A stretch of DNA of 36,397 nucleotides from Thermoplasmatota archaeon (GTDB lineage Archaea > Thermoplasmatota > E2 > UBA202 > JdFR-43): contig JAPDJQ010000003.1 in NCBI GenBank assembly GCA_029259015.1, forward strand, positions 1-36,397, written 5' to 3'. The number at the start of each line of letters is the position of its first letter. The first letter of the stretch is position 1. Positions 6,962 through 15,982 of the stretch are shown here, one piece after another. The notes beneath the pieces were generated by a model. The model made no database searches. It saw nothing but the letters and a program-made list of their open reading frames with translations, and was not told the DNA's origin. Both the position numbers and the translations under genes were made by a program.

Positions 6962-7054
6962 TTACGTATGATAGAATATCACTATAAAACCAGACAGTAT
7001 CATAAATAACACAATGAGTATTGCTATAAGCCGCATTAACCATTCTCTTTTCAT
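6962..7054 (-). CDS. 30-aa single-TM microprotein translationally coupled to valS
   Basis: Minus-strand ATG at 7054 overlaps valS stop as ATGA; translation MKREWLMRLIAILIVLFMILSGFIVIFYHT*; fills the gap to the phosphatase gene. Confidence 0.5.
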   Translation of the reverse strand: MKREWLMRLIAILIVLFMILSGFIVIFYHT

Positions 7055-9663
7055 TTTTCTACCAATATAAACATATCTTTCGCTTTTATTAGATTTTCTT
7101 CTGCCTCCTCCACTATTTCAACAAATTCTTTATCTATCTTTACTTCTTCACCACCTATCACAAGAGTGTGATATCCTTTTTCTTCTATCTCTTTTGCAAT
7201 TGCCTCTCCATTCTTCTTTATCTCTTCAATTATTATTTTACTCTTATCTCTGAAACGAGGGCCTATCTTGTTGTACAATGGTATTGCAATCTTTTTTGCA
7301 ACTGGCTTTTCTTTCCCTCTTGCTATTTCATTTACCTTCAAAGTGCCAGCAATAATATCCTTTCCATCTATTTCACCATAAACAATTATTTTTGAGATTG
7401 GTGCATTTAATGCCATTCCCTGCTTGCTCTTCCAGTCTCTCACTCTAGCGATTACTTCTTTTATTACTTCTCCTTTTCTCTCAGATTCCTCATCTATTAG
7501 AATTGGCTCAGGCCATTTGGAAAGATGGATACTTTCATCACCTTCAAATTTTTTGTAAAATTGATGATATATTTCTTCTGTGATAAAGGGTAAGAATGGA
7601 GCAAATAATTTTGCCATACCTAAGCCAATGACATATAGAGTGTATAGAGCTGCTTTATCGTTTTTTTCATAGACTCTGTGTTTGACCATCTCCATATAAT
7701 GATCAGCGAATTCATGCCATAAGAAATATTCTGCTTCCTTCATTGCACTTGAATACTCGAAATTATTCATATATTCTGTAACTTTCTTTACGACTTTGCT
7801 GTATAAACTCAAAACCCATTTATCCACAACATGTAATTCAGTTTCTTCTGGCTTTTCCTTAATAACGCTTCCTATAAATTTCTCAACATTCCATAGCTTG
7901 TTCATTAATCTTATTCCTCTAACCAGGTCCTTAAATCGGAAAGGGTTATCTTCGCCGAGCTTGCATGTTGCCGCATAATAGCGGAGGGCATCGGTTCCAT
8001 ATTCCTCAATTATTTCTAAAGGATCCACAACATTACCCAAGGAGGTATGCATTGGCCTGCCGTCAGGAGCGAGAATGAAGCCGTCTATCATTACTTCCTC
8101 AAATGGTTTTTCATCTGTAATAAGGAAACATCGCAAGATTGTATAGAAGGCCCAAGTCCTTATTATGTCATGGGCTTGAGGACGCAGAGACATTGGATAT
8201 AATTTTTTAAATAGCCCCTCATCTCTCTCCCAGAAAGTATTGTATAAAGGAGTGATTGAGGAATCCATCCATGTATCAAAAACATCTTCGCACCCTTTTA
8301 ATTCACCGCCGCATTTTGGGCATTTCTCAACCGGCGGCTTATCCACTGTGGGGTCTACATAACACTGCTCCTCTTTTGCCAGTACAACCTCTTTACAATT
8401 TTCACACTCCCACAGAGGTATAGGGGTGGCAAAATAACGCTGCCTCGAAATTACCCAGTCCCATTTTAAGGAATTAACCCATTCTTCTAGCCTTTTGAAC
8501 ATATATTTTGGGTACCATTTCATGTTTTTTGCAACCTCTAATATTTTTTCCTTGAATGGTAAAATCTTCAAAAACCACTGCTCTGCCTGGATAAATTCTA
8601 TAGGTGTTTTGCACCTCCAGCATATGCCAACACTTTGCTCAATTTCCTCCTGTTTTGTTAAATAGCCTTCTTTCTCCAAATCCTCTATTATTGCTTTTCT
8701 TGCATCCTCCACTTTCATTCCAGCATATTTTCCAGCCAATTCATTCAGTGTTCCATCCTCGTTTATGCATATTTCTATAGGCAAGTCATATTTCATCACC
8801 CACTCCAAGTCTTCTTTATCACCTATGGTACAAACCATAACAATACCTGTACCGAATTCTGGGTCTACACTATCATCCTCAATAATTTTCACCCTTTTAT
8901 TATAGAGTGGAACGATAACTTCTTTATCAACAAGAAAAGCAGCCCTCTCATCATCTGGATGAATGGCAACAACCTGACATGTTGAGAGCATTTCTGGACG
9001 AGTTGTGGCTATTTCAATATAACTTCCCCTCTCATCCTTTTTTATTCCTCTGCCTTCCACATTTTCTGCAAGATAAAATTTTATTGTATTCAGCAATGTT
9101 TTTCTTTCAGTATGCTCTATTTCTGCATCTGCCATCGCCGTCATACAACGAGGACACCAGTTAACTGGGAATTTTCCTCTGTAAATATATCCTTTCTTAT
9201 AAAGCCGTATGAATGATATTTGGGTGAGGCGACGATAATATTCGGCATCTGTTCTATAAAAAATGCTATCATCCATGGATTCGCCCAGTATAATAAACTG
9301 ATGGATCATTTCATCTATATTTTCATCTGCAAATTGCTTGCATAATTTAATGAATTCGTGTCTATCTATGTCCTTCCTAGTTATACCATACTTTCTTTCT
9401 ACTCTCTCCTCAATAGGAATTCCATTTACATCGAAGCACAAAGGAAAGAGAACATTGTAGCCACACATTCTCTTATATCTCGCAACAAAATCAATATGAG
9501 TATAATGCACTGCATGCCCAATATGAAGTGCTCCTGAAGCATAACGGGGAGGATTATCTATAGAGTATACAGGTAGTCTGTCTCTATCAAATTTATAAAT
9601 TTTCGTCTCTTGCCATTTTTTCTGCCATTTTTTCTCAATTTCCTTTGCATTATAGGCGCTCAT
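7051..9663 (-). CDS. valS: Valyl-tRNA synthetase, archaeal type
   Basis: HIGH motif (GALHIGHAVHYTHIDFVARYKRMCGYNVLFP), FPVNWCPRCMTAMADAEIE, TSLGNVVDPLEIIEEYGTDALRYYAA; start MSAYNAKEIEKKW with upstream TATA AAATTTATAAG; ORF start at 9714 probably too long. Confidence 0.9.
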   Translation of the reverse strand: MSAYNAKEIEKKWQKKWQETKIYKFDRDRLPVYSIDNPPRYASGALHIGHAVHYTHIDFVARYKRMCGYNVLFPLCFDVNGIPIEERVERKYGITRKDIDRHEFIKLCKQFADENIDEMIHQFIILGESMDDSIFYRTDAEYYRRLTQISFIRLYKKGYIYRGKFPVNWCPRCMTAMADAEIEHTERKTLLNTIKFYLAENVEGRGIKKDERGSYIEIATTRPEMLSTCQVVAIHPDDERAAFLVDKEVIVPLYNKRVKIIEDDSVDPEFGTGIVMVCTIGDKEDLEWVMKYDLPIEICINEDGTLNELAGKYAGMKVEDARKAIIEDLEKEGYLTKQEEIEQSVGICWRCKTPIEFIQAEQWFLKILPFKEKILEVAKNMKWYPKYMFKRLEEWVNSLKWDWVISRQRYFATPIPLWECENCKEVVLAKEEQCYVDPTVDKPPVEKCPKCGGELKGCEDVFDTWMDSSITPLYNTFWERDEGLFKKLYPMSLRPQAHDIIRTWAFYTILRCFLITDEKPFEEVMIDGFILAPDGRPMHTSLGNVVDPLEIIEEYGTDALRYYAATCKLGEDNPFRFKDLVRGIRLMNKLWNVEKFIGSVIKEKPEETELHVVDKWVLSLYSKVVKKVTEYMNNFEYSSAMKEAEYFLWHEFADHYMEMVKHRVYEKNDKAALYTLYVIGLGMAKLFAPFLPFITEEIYHQFYKKFEGDESIHLSKWPEPILIDEESERKGEVIKEVIARVRDWKSKQGMALNAPISKIIVYGEIDGKDIIAGTLKVNEIARGKEKPVAKKIAIPLYNKIGPRFRDKSKIIIEEIKKNGEAIAKEIEEKGYHTLVIGGEEVKIDKEFVEIVEEAEENLIKAKDMFILVEK

Positions 9664-9706: not shown

Positions 9707-9751
9707 TGACCCACCCCCCTTTATTTCCACTGGAAAGTTTATATGGGAGCA
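9707..9751 (+). repeat. Left copy of perfect 45-bp inverted repeat; promoter of the radical SAM gene
   Basis: tgacccacccccctttatttccactggaaagtttatatgggagca; exact reverse complement at 14160-14204. Confidence 0.95.
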
Positions 9752-9767
9752 TTGTTTAGTTTTATTA

Positions 9768-11384
9768 ATGCTTACATTATTAGATGGCTTCGTCGATGAA
9801 CCAGCATGCTTAGGCGTGCCCCCGTATATATCTCCATATGCTCGTTACATAGCTGGCGCAATAAAAGATGCTGGAGAAGAATATGAATATATGACCATTG
9901 AGGAGTGGAGGAAAGGAAGAAGAATAAAAGGAGATGTTCTCGTAATATTGGCAGGAGCTATTGTTCCTGGAAGATATCTTCGTGGGATGCCAATTTCTTT
10001 TAAAGAGTTTCGTGAAATTTGTGAAAATTTTAAAGGGATTAAAATTCTTGTAGGAGCTGCCGCAAAATATGGTTTTGGAGGTGGAGGAGGAAAAGACCTA
10101 ATAGATGGCAGTAAATTTGTTGATTATACTGCAATGGAAGACGGAGATGCTTTTGTGTATGATTTTCTCAATGGCAGCATCCAGCATAGAAAAAGGAGTA
10201 TTGAAGAATGGAAGAGATGGAGTATTTTAGGAGCGGAGGTTGCCAAACAGCATCCTGATTACCCTCTGCCATTAATAGCAGAAATAGAAACATATAGAGG
10301 ATGTGTAAGATGGTTTACCGGTGGATGTTCCTTTTGTGTTGAACCCCTTTTTGGGGAACCTATTATGAGAGATGAAAAGGATATTATAAATGAGGTTAAA
10401 GAATTAAGAAAAAATGGCGTGGTTAATTTTAGATTGGGAGCCCAATCCTGTTTCTTTTCCTATAAGGCAAAAGGACTAGGAAAAAGCGAGGTGCCGCAGC
10501 CCAATCCCGATGCCATTAAAAGATTGTTGGAGGGCATAGTGAAATTAAATCCTAAGGTGCTGCATATCGACAACGTAAATCCTGCAGTAGTAGCAGAATG
10601 GGAGGAAGAGAGCAGGAAAATATCTGAGTTGATAATAAAATATTGTACACCTGGAAATACAGCAGCATTTGGTATGGAAAGTGCAGATGAAAAGGTAATT
10701 AAAGAGAATAATCTTAATTCGACCCCTGAACAGGTAATGAATGCAGTCAGAATAATAAATGAGGTTGGTAAAGAAAGAGGAAAGAATGGTATGCCGTATT
10801 TTTTGCCTGGCATAAACATAATTTATGGATTAAAAGGAGAGTGTAAAGAAACCTATGCAAAAAATTACAGATTTTTGAAAAGAGTTTTGGAAAAAGGCTA
10901 TTTATTGAGGAGAATAAATATAAGACAGGTGGCAAATTTGAAAGGTTGGAAGATGAAAATAAGCAAAGAATTGTTTAAGAAATTTAAGAGAAAGATCAAT
11001 GAAGAAATAAATAAACCAATGCTCGAAAAATTATTACCAAAAGAAACTGTGCTAAAGGAAGTGTATCTAGAGATAAATATTGGGAATAAGACTTTTGGGA
11101 GGCAAATCGGTAGCTATCCTATACTTGTTTGTCTGCCATATAAAACAGAAGTAAATAAATTTACAGATGTCAAAGTCCTTGATCATTCTTATAGAAGTAT
11201 TACTGCTCTGGAATATCCTATTGACGTAAATGCCGCAACATTTGATATGTTGAAAAATATTCCTTTTATTGGAGAAAAGAGAGCAGCGAAAATAATTAGA
11301 AATAGACCTTTTAATAAGAAGAAAGATTTGTTAAAATTGTTTGAGAAAGATGTGAGAGAAGAAATAGCAAAATGGACTACATGA
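9768..11384 (+). CDS. COG1031-type radical SAM enzyme with C-terminal helix-hairpin-helix domain
   Basis: GCVRWFTGGCSFC (Cx7Cx2C) cluster motif, GMES motif, C-terminal IDVNAATFDMLKNIPFIGEKRAAKIIRNRPF HhH. Confidence 0.85.
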   Translation: MLTLLDGFVDEPACLGVPPYISPYARYIAGAIKDAGEEYEYMTIEEWRKGRRIKGDVLVILAGAIVPGRYLRGMPISFKEFREICENFKGIKILVGAAAKYGFGGGGGKDLIDGSKFVDYTAMEDGDAFVYDFLNGSIQHRKRSIEEWKRWSILGAEVAKQHPDYPLPLIAEIETYRGCVRWFTGGCSFCVEPLFGEPIMRDEKDIINEVKELRKNGVVNFRLGAQSCFFSYKAKGLGKSEVPQPNPDAIKRLLEGIVKLNPKVLHIDNVNPAVVAEWEEESRKISELIIKYCTPGNTAAFGMESADEKVIKENNLNSTPEQVMNAVRIINEVGKERGKNGMPYFLPGINIIYGLKGECKETYAKNYRFLKRVLEKGYLLRRINIRQVANLKGWKMKISKELFKKFKRKINEEINKPMLEKLLPKETVLKEVYLEINIGNKTFGRQIGSYPILVCLPYKTEVNKFTDVKVLDHSYRSITALEYPIDVNAATFDMLKNIPFIGEKRAAKIIRNRPFNKKKDLLKLFEKDVREEIAKWTT

Positions 11385-12033
11385 TATTTTTTAGGTGTAT
11401 TATTCTCAGTTCTATTTCTTCTTTTCCTAACAGGTTCTTCAAACCTTCTATATGCCCCTCTCCTACAATAGCTATTACTTTGCCTTTTTCTTTTAGTATT
11501 TCCCCCAATCTTTTGGCCATATGCAAATTTCTTTTATCAATTACTACTTCTTTTATCTCTGGGAAATTCTCCTCCATTTTTTTCATAAAATAATCTACGT
11601 CTTCCTGAAATTTTTCTACTTCTTTTTCTATCTTTTCTTTTCTCATGAATAAAGAAAGGAAAATAGAAAACAAGATGGATATTTTCTTTCTTAACGAAAG
11701 ATTTTGCCATAATTGTTTTATTATTTCTTCAGCATTTATATCGATATAAAATACAGGTATTCCCAGCTCTTTTGCCTTATTTATAGCTGCCAGCATTTCG
11801 CTGCCAGCAGCATTTCCAAATTTTTTGGCGATATTATCCTGTAATTTTGCAAGCAGAGAATATAAAAAATTAGGATATTTTCTTCTTTTCTCGCTAGATT
11901 GTAGAGCGAGCGCTCTTCCAACATCAAGTTCTAAAGCAATACCATCTGGCATCTCCTTCTCTATAATCTCTTCTATTTTGTTCCCAATATCGAAGACATG
12001 CCCAACTCCAACCAAAATCAACTCAGCAGCCAT
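11377..12033 (-). CDS. TraB/PrgY-like domain protein
   Basis: ILVGVGHVF...PDGIALELDVGRALAL, MLAAINKAKELGIPVFYIDI, VIAIVGEGHIEGL resembling TraB family. Confidence 0.65.
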   Translation of the reverse strand: MAAELILVGVGHVFDIGNKIEEIIEKEMPDGIALELDVGRALALQSSEKRRKYPNFLYSLLAKLQDNIAKKFGNAAGSEMLAAINKAKELGIPVFYIDINAEEIIKQLWQNLSLRKKISILFSIFLSLFMRKEKIEKEVEKFQEDVDYFMKKMEENFPEIKEVVIDKRNLHMAKRLGEILKEKGKVIAIVGEGHIEGLKNLLGKEEIELRIIHLKNIM

Positions 12034-12656
12034 TCTGCAAGTTCTTTTACTCCTTTTCCACTTCTGGCATCTGTTAAAAACACTTTTTTTGGCGCTATTT
12101 TTTTAATGTCCTCCAATACCTTATCAATATTAACATCCATATAAGGCAATAAATCTATTTTATTTATCACAATGAAATCAGATATCTGGAAAATGAGCGG
12201 GTGTTTTCTCACCATATCGTCTCCCTCAGTAACAGAAATTACAACCCCTCTTTTGTGAGTGCCCAATTCAAAATCTGCGGGGCAGACGAGATTGCCAATA
12301 TTTTCAATAAATAAGATATCTATATTGTCTAAATCCATTTCCTCAATTGCATGCTCAATTAAGTGAGCGTCTAAATGGCACTCTTTGCCCGTATTTATAT
12401 TAACTACTGGTACTCCATATTTTTTTATCCTTTTATAATCATCATCACCAGTTACATCCCCAACTATCACCCCGATTTTTTTATCTTTTAAAATTTCTAT
12501 AAGTTTCTCAATAATTAATGTTTTCCCAGAGCCAATTGAGCCCATGAAATCAACGGCCGTTATTCCTCTTTCATCAAGCAATCTCTTTATCTCTGCAGCA
12601 ATTTTTCTATTTGCTTCATATATATCTTTTCCCATCTCCAAATCAATCTTATGCAT
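12018..12656 (-). CDS. hypB: Hydrogenase nickel incorporation GTPase HypB
   Basis: FMGSIGSGKTLIIEKL P-loop, VGDVTGDDDYKRI, GKECHLDAHLIEHA, ENIGNLVCPADFELG, NKIDLLPY. Confidence 0.95.
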   Translation of the reverse strand: MHKIDLEMGKDIYEANRKIAAEIKRLLDERGITAVDFMGSIGSGKTLIIEKLIEILKDKKIGVIVGDVTGDDDYKRIKKYGVPVVNINTGKECHLDAHLIEHAIEEMDLDNIDILFIENIGNLVCPADFELGTHKRGVVISVTEGDDMVRKHPLIFQISDFIVINKIDLLPYMDVNIDKVLEDIKKIAPKKVFLTDARSGKGVKELAEWLLS

Positions 12657-12689
12657 GTCTGATTAAACAGATCGATAATTAAAATCTTT

Positions 12690-12908
12690 TCATGAAATCT
12701 TATCCTCTTTCTTCATTCTTATAGCATCTATTAAACCATGAGCATAATTTATACAACCAAATGATGTGAAATAATCCCCTTTAGAAAAATAGTATTTTGC
12801 ATCTTCATAATACCTTTTTGCCATTTCCAATATTTCTTTATCTCCCACTTCCTTACAATTTTTCTCAAATAGTTCAATATCTTTTTTTATTCTTTCTTCA
12901 ATATTCAT
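12690..12908 (-). CDS. DUF357 family small protein
   Basis: MNIEERIKKDIELFEKNC...AKRYYEDAKYYFSKGDYFTSFGCINYAHGLIDA; ATGA overlap with hflX stop supports start at 12908. Confidence 0.75.
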   Translation of the reverse strand: MNIEERIKKDIELFEKNCKEVGDKEILEMAKRYYEDAKYYFSKGDYFTSFGCINYAHGLIDAIRMKKEDKIS

Positions 12909-14146
12909 ATTACTCTTACCTCCCCACCAGCTTTTCTGCACCTCCCTATTATTTTTTCTTTCAACCTCTCACTACACTTTATTTTTATCTTCAAGCAACC
13001 ATCTAAATTCCACTCCAGAATGTTTGTATTCTCCTCTATCCATTCAATTATCTCTTTATTATTATTCATAGGAAGTTTAATTTCAAGTTTTGAAGGGGGT
13101 GGCAAAATATTATAGATTTCTTGCAAAAGTAGATCAATATTTTCTCCAGTTTTTGCGGATATTGGAATACACTTGTGGCCTAGCAATTTTTCCATCTCTT
13201 TCTTTTTTCTCTCTATTTCTTCTTTTTTCAACAAATCTATTTTATTTAATGCAATCACTATGTTCGGCCTCTCTTTCAGTCCATAAATTTCCTTCAATGA
13301 AGTGAAAGCCTTTTCTTTCATCTCATCTAATTCTTCACTTGCATCCATTAGAAGCACTACTACATCAGCTAAATAAATCTCCTCCAACGTCGAATGAAAA
13401 GCATCTATCATCCAATGTGGTAAATCTTTGATAAATCCCACTGTATCTGTAAAAAGCAAAGGAACATCTCCTTTAACCTTTAATTTACTCGTTTTTGTCG
13501 AAAGTGTAGAAAAAACTCTTTCTTCAACAACTACTTTTTCTCCTGTGAGATAATTAAGTAAAGAACTTTTTCCAGCGTTGGTATATCCTGCTATGGAAAC
13601 TAAATAAAAACCCCACCCCTTCCTTTTACCTCTCCTTATCTCTCTTTCCTTCTCAATTTTTTTCAGTTCTTCTCTTATTCTTCTCATTTGTTTTTTTATC
13701 ATTTCATAATAATCTGCTACTACATACTCTCCTCCTCCTAAAAATCCAGGGCGCTCCCCTTCTTTTACGCGATGGAAAAGTTCTCTCACAAACGGTTTTT
13801 CATATCTGAGTTTTGCCAACTTAACCTGTAATTGCGCCTCCTTCCTTTTTGCTCTATCAGCGAATATTTCGAGTATTATTCTTATTCTGTCATAAACAGG
13901 TATATTCAGATATTTTTCCAGATTGAACCATTGTGAAGGACGGAGAGCATCATTTACAAATACAGCTTCTATGTTGTTTTTTTCAACATATTCTTTAATT
14001 TCTTCGATTTTTCCTTTTCCTAGGTAGTATGGTGTAGGCTTTTCTCTAATCTGTATAAATTCTTTTTTTACTCCATGTCCCAGAGATTTTACCAGCTCTC
14101 TAAGCTCTTTTGTATCTTTTTTTATCGAAAGAATTATTCCATCCAC
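12905..14146 (-). CDS. hflX: GTPase HflX
   Basis: YYLGKGKIEEI, FVNDALRPSQWFNLEKYLNIPVYDRIRIILEIFADRAKRKEAQLQVKLAKLRYE, GYTNAGKSSLLN, DTVGFIKDLP; leaderless GTG start at 14146 proposed because ORF codons 1-21 cover a TATA promoter. Confidence 0.9.
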   Translation of the reverse strand: MDGIILSIKKDTKELRELVKSLGHGVKKEFIQIREKPTPYYLGKGKIEEIKEYVEKNNIEAVFVNDALRPSQWFNLEKYLNIPVYDRIRIILEIFADRAKRKEAQLQVKLAKLRYEKPFVRELFHRVKEGERPGFLGGGEYVVADYYEMIKKQMRRIREELKKIEKEREIRRGKRKGWGFYLVSIAGYTNAGKSSLLNYLTGEKVVVEERVFSTLSTKTSKLKVKGDVPLLFTDTVGFIKDLPHWMIDAFHSTLEEIYLADVVVLLMDASEELDEMKEKAFTSLKEIYGLKERPNIVIALNKIDLLKKEEIERKKKEMEKLLGHKCIPISAKTGENIDLLLQEIYNILPPPSKLEIKLPMNNNKEIIEWIEENTNILEWNLDGCLKIKIKCSERLKEKIIGRCRKAGGEVRVI

Positions 14147-14159
14147 ATTTTTAATATCC

Positions 14160-14204
14160 TGCTCCCATATAAACTTTCCAGTGGAAATAAAGGGGGGTGG
14201 GTCA
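14160..14204 (-). repeat. Right copy of perfect 45-bp inverted repeat; promoter of hflX and end of DP1
   Basis: tgctcccatataaactttccagtggaaataaaggggggtgggtca; includes DP1 stop codon and minus-strand TATA TTTATAT about 21-27 nt before GTG 14146. Confidence 0.95.
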
Positions 14205-15650
14205 TGCAAATTGGATAACAGAAGGTATTAAATTCCTTAAGTTCACAACAACAGCCTTTGCAGGATCTGGCATAAAATTCATCATTTTCTGATAATCTGT
14301 CTGAGATTGCCAAGCTGAGGCATTAATGAGTAAAACATTTCTGTATTGCTCAATAGCTGTTACATGAACATGACCTGTTACAAAAATATCAGGGACAACA
14401 TCAATTACCATATAATCTTCCTTTTCAGGGGCTAATGAGGAAATGCCACCATATATTGGTGCCATATGTCGGCGCTTCAGCATTTCTTTCATTATCTTTG
14501 TTGGCTGGTTTTGATTCATATTCGGCAAACAAGTTGCGAAATCCTGTATGGACTGGCCATGATATGCAAGTGTGAGCACTCCTTCTATTTCCATGTAGCA
14601 AGGGTTCCCAATAAATGTTATGTTGAGATGAGAAAATAAATCTTTTATCTCTTTCTCGAAAGCAGGTTGGGGCAACGCAGGACGAACAGCATCGTGATTT
14701 CCAGGCTGCATTAATATTTTTATCTCTGAAGGAATCTCAGATAATTTTTCTGCCAAAAGTTCGTACTGCTCATATAAATCTTCAACCATTAAATCCTTCT
14801 CCTGCCCAGGATATATCCCTACTCCTTCTATATTATCTCCAGAAATTACAATATATTTCACTTTTTCAGCCACACTTTTTTGTCTCTCATTCCCTTTCTT
14901 GCCCTTTATCCATTCTAAGAAAGCATCCCACTCTTTTTCCAGAAAACTTTTGCTGCCAACATGTAAATCTGACAGGAAGGCAACATAAATCTCTTCAGAA
15001 GAGAAATTCTTTCTTCTCTCTACCGGAATCTCTGGCCTCACTATACTTCTTGCAATAAACATTTCTCCTTTTCTCTTGCCCACAATGCCCAATACTTCGT
15101 CATGCACTATCAGTGAATCGACATTTTTTGGCACATACACTCTAATTGATTCCTCTTCATCCTCTATTTCAACAAACAAACCATTTGAGGTGCTAACAAC
15201 ATCTTTCACAATTCCAATGGTTGCTATCTCTTCGCTACTTCTCAAAGCTTTCTTAATTGGCACTGCATTTTTCATTTCCTGCCTTTTCCTTAAAAAGCCA
15301 CTCAATTTTTCAAATCTGTTACGAAATAATTTCACAAAGTCTTCAAGTGTGCCCTCACATGTACTATTCCCTGTGACATCTCTTAAAATTTTAAGTCTTT
15401 CTTTCCTTATTTTTTCTGCTTCTATTCGCACCTCCTCTCTTCCCTCTTCCTCCTTCCTTTCCTCCTTCCTCTCAAAAAAACTCCGTACCATATCAATAGA
15501 CAGTATGAAGGGCTTCTCTCCTAATTCTTTCAAAATATTTTTACACTCTTCAACACCATTCCCTCTACTCACTAAATACTCAACAGCTTCTGGTTGTATG
15601 AGCATCCCTTCCTTCTGAAAGAAATTGACTATCTCTTTCCTCACATCCAT
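14202..15650 (-). CDS. DNA polymerase II (PolD) small subunit DP1
   Basis: C-terminal calcineurin-like domain (FLSDLHVGSKSF, ISGDNIEGVGIYPGQ, QPGNHDA, VTGHVHV) typical of DP1; start MDVRKEIVNFF at 15650 because the ORF extension to 15686 enters SRP RNA. Confidence 0.92.
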   Translation of the reverse strand: MDVRKEIVNFFQKEGMLIQPEAVEYLVSRGNGVEECKNILKELGEKPFILSIDMVRSFFERKEERKEEEGREEVRIEAEKIRKERLKILRDVTGNSTCEGTLEDFVKLFRNRFEKLSGFLRKRQEMKNAVPIKKALRSSEEIATIGIVKDVVSTSNGLFVEIEDEEESIRVYVPKNVDSLIVHDEVLGIVGKRKGEMFIARSIVRPEIPVERRKNFSSEEIYVAFLSDLHVGSKSFLEKEWDAFLEWIKGKKGNERQKSVAEKVKYIVISGDNIEGVGIYPGQEKDLMVEDLYEQYELLAEKLSEIPSEIKILMQPGNHDAVRPALPQPAFEKEIKDLFSHLNITFIGNPCYMEIEGVLTLAYHGQSIQDFATCLPNMNQNQPTKIMKEMLKRRHMAPIYGGISSLAPEKEDYMVIDVVPDIFVTGHVHVTAIEQYRNVLLINASAWQSQTDYQKMMNFMPDPAKAVVVNLRNLIPSVIQFA

Positions 15651-15653
15651 TTT

Positions 15654-15982
15654 TAGCCAGCGCAGACACGCCCCAAGTGGGCACACACCACCACCAACGA
15701 TTTACTCCAGCACCCTCCTTAGTTCCGCACCCCTCTGAGCACTGGTAGTTCCTGGCTGGGCCGCTCCCTTCCGGGCCTAACCCCTTGGCCAGGACAAAGG
15801 CAGGCAGACTGGTCCTCCGGCCAGCCGGTCTGCCACCTCCAGTCCCAGAGGACGAAACTTCATCGTTGGATGCCGGATCGCTGGCAGCGGCATGCGCCGC
15901 CTTGGAAGCTTCGGCTCCGGCTAAGGCGATTTCCGGTTACAGGGGACGCCTAACCCCCCAGCCTAGTCTGCGCTTTTGGCCA
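15654..15982 (-). ncRNA. ffs: Archaeal SRP (7S) RNA
   Basis: Reverse complement contains CTAGGCTGGGGGGTTAGGCGTCCCCTGTAACCGGAAA (Alu-domain core), GGAGGTGGCAGACCGGC, and helix-8-like GGCCCGGAAGGGAGCGGCC; termini GCGCAGAC/GTCTGCGC pair to close the RNA; strongly GC-rich island in AT-rich sequence; TATA-like ACTTTATTAAG about 25 nt upstream. Confidence 0.95.

Follow-up and report, generated by a model that had tools for sequence, protein, structure and literature searches.

Gene order in related archaeal genomes supports the conclusion that a convergent block of five genes and 4.4 kb, bounded by two inverted copies of a promoter, has flipped repeatedly during the history of one family of Thermoplasmatota. 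From this and from the sequences of the copies, we consider it probable that they are a promoter-module pair undergoing homologous recombination, in which crossover would flip the block and conversion would homogenise the copies.

In the window (the whole stretch of 36,397 nucleotides that was analysed), a repeat search returned a perfect inverted repeat with arms of 45 nt at 9707-9751 and 14160-14204, 100% complementary and with 4408 nt between them. The preliminary description of this DNA had reported the same repeat and judged it too good to be chance, a view borne out by arithmetic, which gives an expectation below 1e-15 for a perfect 45-mer in 36 kb. It had also called for a genome-wide search for further copies of the 45-mer; in the window genome (a MAG of 1.41 Mb, 86% complete) there are only these two, even with up to three mismatches allowed. 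Among perfect inverted repeats with arms separated by 300 bp or more, the runner-up measures 21 bp (446 kb of the window genome, scanned piecewise). Both copies face the block interior, the left one (plus strand) holding the radSAM promoter and the right one (minus strand) that of hflX, and each contains the C tract, the 13-bp palindrome and the TATA box that had been described before, in this order: a C-rich tract (CCCACCCCCC at 9710..9719, plus strand; 14192..14201, minus strand), the palindrome TTTCCACTGGAAA (9724..9736, plus; 14175..14187, minus), the right half of which overlaps the expected BRE position in the left copy, and the TATA box TTTATAT (9738..9744, plus, for radSAM; 14167..14173, minus, for hflX). 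The right copy opens with the TGA stop codon of the polD small subunit gene (14204-14202). From TATA box to start codon we measured 23 nt to the radSAM ATG at 9768 and 20 nt to the hflX GTG at 14146, in line with the earlier estimates of about 24 and 21 nt. Leaderless mRNAs are an established feature of archaea, and both gaps fit such mRNAs.

The block is convergent, with radSAM reading inward from one side and hflX, the DUF357 gene, hypB and traB from the other. The radSAM gene (9768..11384, plus strand; Pfam and NCBIfam) encodes a radical SAM protein with a C-terminal HHH_3 motif and a similarity to B12-type radical SAM proteins that is below cut-off. On the minus strand lie hflX (12905..14146, GTG start; TIGR03156 above cut-off), a gene for a DUF357 protein (12690..12941; profile match), hypB (12018..12656; TIGR00073 above cut-off) and a gene for a TraB/PrgY/gumN family protein (11377..12033; profile match). 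The flanking genes are both on the minus strand: the polD small subunit gene (14202..15686; NF003118 above cut-off), and valS (7051..9663, probable ATG at 9663; profile match and gene order), which in the window's genus is the constant neighbour at the opposite end of the block. Among the relatives, the block of G008 (L051) has no match to TraB or HypB, most genomes of genus g7 carry a HypB-like gene that is just about 35% identical, and G016 (L061) has an additional gap of roughly 700 bp 3' of radSAM. In G019 (L066:5404-5616) radSAM is truncated, matching over the first 84 residues only and followed by TraB, and the upstream repeat is retained.

Of the genomes compared, 17 belong to the family of the window (f1, which includes JdFR-43) and 5 to the rest of the order (f2 and f3). 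The radSAM protein brought up named relatives that are all Thermoplasmatota MAGs; they include JdFR-43, which comes from the Juan de Fuca subseafloor, and B78_G9, with a scaffold name that suggests Guaymas; the JdFR-43 family is reported from hydrothermal vents (PMC10811742). A 31-mer core of the repeat, searched with up to three mismatches, was present in 17/17 family genomes and in 0/24 other genomes searched, and in all 17 it marks the same locus. The 31 distinct family copies give the consensus acccac.CCCC.T.aTTTCCACTGGAAAgTTTATAT, and every one of them keeps TTTCCACTGGAAA together with TTTATAT; the C tract is conserved for the most part. In f2 the C tract and palindrome are kept at both end genes, with small changes at most, and the two TATA regions are unlike one another; the element therefore predates the family, and what has been shared longest is its upstream half. 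The recent duplication suggested earlier is wrong as an origin, since the pair was in place before the family arose and the neighbouring one has shorter versions of it. The other palindrome copies that we examined in the order and class are isolated 13-mers lacking the C tract or TATA box, and were taken as chance. A search of plasmid records gave no match. We also rejected a transposon with terminal inverted repeats, as there are two copies per genome, always at one locus, and no transposase.

We scored the orientation of the block against polD as the fixed flank, polD lying either beside hflX (orientation H) or beside radSAM (orientation R). Eight family genomes are H (G000, G003, G005, G006, G007, G008, G011 and G013) and nine are R (G001, G002, G004, G009, G010, G012 and G016, plus G014 and G015, whose calls rest on far-flank homology); in the neighbouring family f2, H is seen in G019 and G020 and R in G021. 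The order in the window is valS, repeat, radSAM through to hflX, repeat, polD. Its closest relative, G001 (about 90% identical), has valS, repeat, hflX through to radSAM, repeat, polD, with the outer neighbours unchanged. When G000 is set against G001 and G002, the block alone is reversed, valS and polD being collinear, and G005 and G012, which belong to one genus, share polD and a far gene (not valS) on either side of a reversed block. Opposite orientations are found inside each of four genera (g1, g2, g3 and g7). The inversion model put forward in the preliminary description is supported by this at the species level, the block being flipped between collinear flanks; divergence of the promoters in relatives, which had been named as evidence against that model, is not what we found, for the promoters are conserved there and the gene order is inverted.

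A tree of 20 genomes (17 from the family and 3 from the neighbouring family) was built from a protein alignment of 1953 columns. By parsimony this tree needs at least 8 orientation changes, 6 of which are forced by starred (well-supported) branches; shuffled labels need 7.0 on average, so orientation keeps no phylogenetic signal. The fit of a two-state rate model hardly changes above about 3 flips per substitution per site and has dropped by 2 log units at about 1.5. This bounds the flip rate from below at about 1.5 flips per amino-acid substitution per site and leaves it unbounded from above. G000 and G001, which are 0.105 apart, differ in orientation, and G015 and G016, 0.078 apart, agree.

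The two copies of the repeat evolve in concert. In the 14 genomes with both copies, the unbroken match between them is 37-77 bp (mean 50.5), whereas between genomes the match averages 24, for radSAM against hflX copies and likewise for copies of the same gene. For the TATA-to-start spacer, the sequence of which is not otherwise constrained, identity is 0.74 within a genome, compared with 0.41 for radSAM against the hflX of other genomes and 0.44 for one gene compared across genomes (permutation p 5e-5 for the within-genome excess); there is no such excess further out or past the start codon. The final codons of polD with their stop (ATA TCC TTC ACC TAA) have a second copy on the valS side in G003, within the common tract, and in G009, G013 and G016 the common tract extends through the start codon. 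Because copies within a genome are far more alike than the same promoter is between genomes, gene conversion together with crossover between the repeats is indicated. Gene conversion was among the options raised at the outset, and the within-genome likeness, the spacers and the copied polD codons all support it. Tract ends are variable and some tracts have later decayed (G008, G010 and G012), so that copying is recurrent, though probably not in every generation. The decayed tracts also favour flipping over evolutionary time rather than within populations.

We propose that the two copies are one promoter module placed at both ends of the convergent block. Homologous recombination between the inverted copies, presumably RadA-dependent, would have two outcomes: a crossover would invert the 4.4-kb block, and non-crossover repair would copy one promoter onto the other. 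Since each repeat carries a whole, putatively active inward promoter, both end genes would keep an intact promoter after a flip, which should be silent for them; only the outer neighbour would be altered, polD reading either toward hflX or toward radSAM. Flips may be nearly neutral, and would for that reason be random with respect to the tree, and gene conversion would maintain repeats long enough for recombination. A RadA-type protein is above cut-off in 21/22 genomes of the order. We searched the literature on archaeal short-homology recombination and found nothing directly usable; that repeats of 37-77 bp may recombine in these organisms is suggested by analogy with ISWpi1 of Wolbachia, where recombination between 23-bp terminal repeats produces inversion with conversion (PMC3004938). 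One observation counts against this model, namely that the constraint on the palindrome exceeds the needs of a pure recombination substrate.

The main reservation on the inversion finding is assembly error, with short-read assemblers joining the repeat in either direction and merging its copies. The genomes with known records are short-read MAGs, the window genome is also a fragmented assembly, and random misjoining would yield the tree-random orientation that is observed. However, ordinary short reads are longer than these repeats of 37-77 bp, and in ten genomes a single contig crosses both copies. In five genomes (G002, G003, G009, G013 and G020) the two junctions lie on separate contigs and give the same orientation, and the contig name of G001 has the MEGAHIT k141 form, with a word length exceeding that of the repeat. 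We consider such an artefact very unlikely. Identical copies might also arise if one transcription factor controlled both promoters, with the differences in gene order being incidental. The invariant palindrome lies directly against the TATA box, across the BRE position, and in the genome these two promoters alone have the element, as a promoter pair under one regulator would look at the level of sequence. Nevertheless, selection on a single operator leaves the genome-specific identical TATA-to-start spacers unexplained, as it does the copied polD stop codons and the start codons, and a shared regulator does not account for flips confined to the repeat-bounded block between collinear flanks. 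As a full explanation shared regulation seems scarcely probable. The part of the preliminary description that proposed it is compatible with our data as the likely reason for the invariant palindrome and TATA box, and fails on the spacers and the copied polD codons; the palindrome is likely to be a common operator.

Inversion of the block at the palindrome by a site-specific recombinase, as a regulated switch, would be in keeping with the invariance of the 13-bp palindrome in every family copy, and a syntenic serine recombinase (Resolvase and Recombinase domains, 280 aa) is present in 18/20 orientation-scored genomes at an identity of at least 71%. Yet orthologues of this protein (57-72% identical) are spread over the class, which lacks the repeat there, G017 has the repeat without the recombinase, and G020 has the repeat with only a distant relative (29-31% identical) at that site. 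Moreover, the leader of the recombinase gene has an unrelated 12+2+12 palindrome, GTGGCTAACGGTNNACCGTTAGCCAC, which is a better candidate site. The class-wide spread, the absence from G017, the replacement in G020 and the different leader palindrome all weaken the serine recombinase as a dedicated invertase, and we regard it as still a candidate, not the favoured one. Tyrosine recombinases are patchy across the genomes, and we rejected them as a universal agent after finding none in G005, G013, G017 and G021; neither the block genes nor the genes adjoining the block include a cognate invertase. Variable-length conversion tracts, furthermore, are not predicted by conservative site-specific recombination. 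We therefore think such a switch unlikely. We would attach a similarly low probability to a programmed flip-flop, in which a host recombinase would act on the palindrome, both orientations would be present in populations and polD read-through would change between hflX and radSAM.

Known invertons usually have one promoter inside the segment, plus an invertase. Here, by contrast, both repeats carry the same promoter motif, so that a flip would not be expected to switch any gene off. Invertons and phase-variable invertible promoters (PMC11892184, PMC11868660) share with the locus described here a segment of alternating orientation bounded by inverted repeats. Homologous recombination between promoter modules, as we propose it, resembles the FLNA-EMD region of the mammalian X chromosome, which like other human inversions recurs between inverted repeats (PMC3961182): the same genes are flipped over and over on the phylogeny with unaltered flanks, although the repeats there are large segmental duplications, while here they are 37-77 bp, archaeal, and the promoters of the end genes. 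ISWpi1 provides a prokaryotic case of inversion and conversion between very short inverted repeats (23 bp; PMC3004938), but what is inverted there is a transposon at two loci, and here it is a core gene block at one locus in a whole family, with no transposase. In Thermococcales, which like these organisms include deep-sea archaea with frequent inversions, flipping by the pTN3 integrase is large-scale and integrase-driven, and has been shown on DNA segments down to 104 bp (PMC5495485); our case concerns one small block and has no universal tyrosine recombinase. What is new is that several features come together: the repeats are very short, contain the promoters, evolve in concert, and have persisted at a single locus throughout a family and outside it. 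The locus is a natural record of inversion and conversion between repeats of 37-77 bp across a whole archaeal family, with a shorter form in its neighbour, and it makes the minimum length of recombining repeats in uncultured thermophiles testable. A promoter inside the repeat could render inversion harmless, so that gene order may flip indefinitely.

The serine recombinase gene is found in G000 on contig C27:9527-10366 (L142:4525-5367), on the minus strand beside rpS8e and SRP19, and is syntenic beside these two genes in nearly all f1 and f2 genomes. The catalytic part of the protein is closest to the TP901-1 integrase, and the protein looks domesticated; several genomes of the class have a second recombinase, about 31% identical, in tandem with it. 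The near-perfect 26-bp palindrome of its leader lies between the TATA box and the start codon (G000:C27:10373-10398, with equivalents in 13 genomes), and a second copy with 3 mismatches is at G000:C83:3686-3711 (L191); it is possibly a crossover site, an operator or an RNA hairpin. The recombinases of G008 (L150) and G006 (L148) are 95% and 91% identical to that of the window, and the one of G001, from the same genus, only 85%. Most block proteins are about 63-79% identical where the recombinases of G008 and G006 reach these values, which we read as in-place replacement or horizontal transfer of this one gene.
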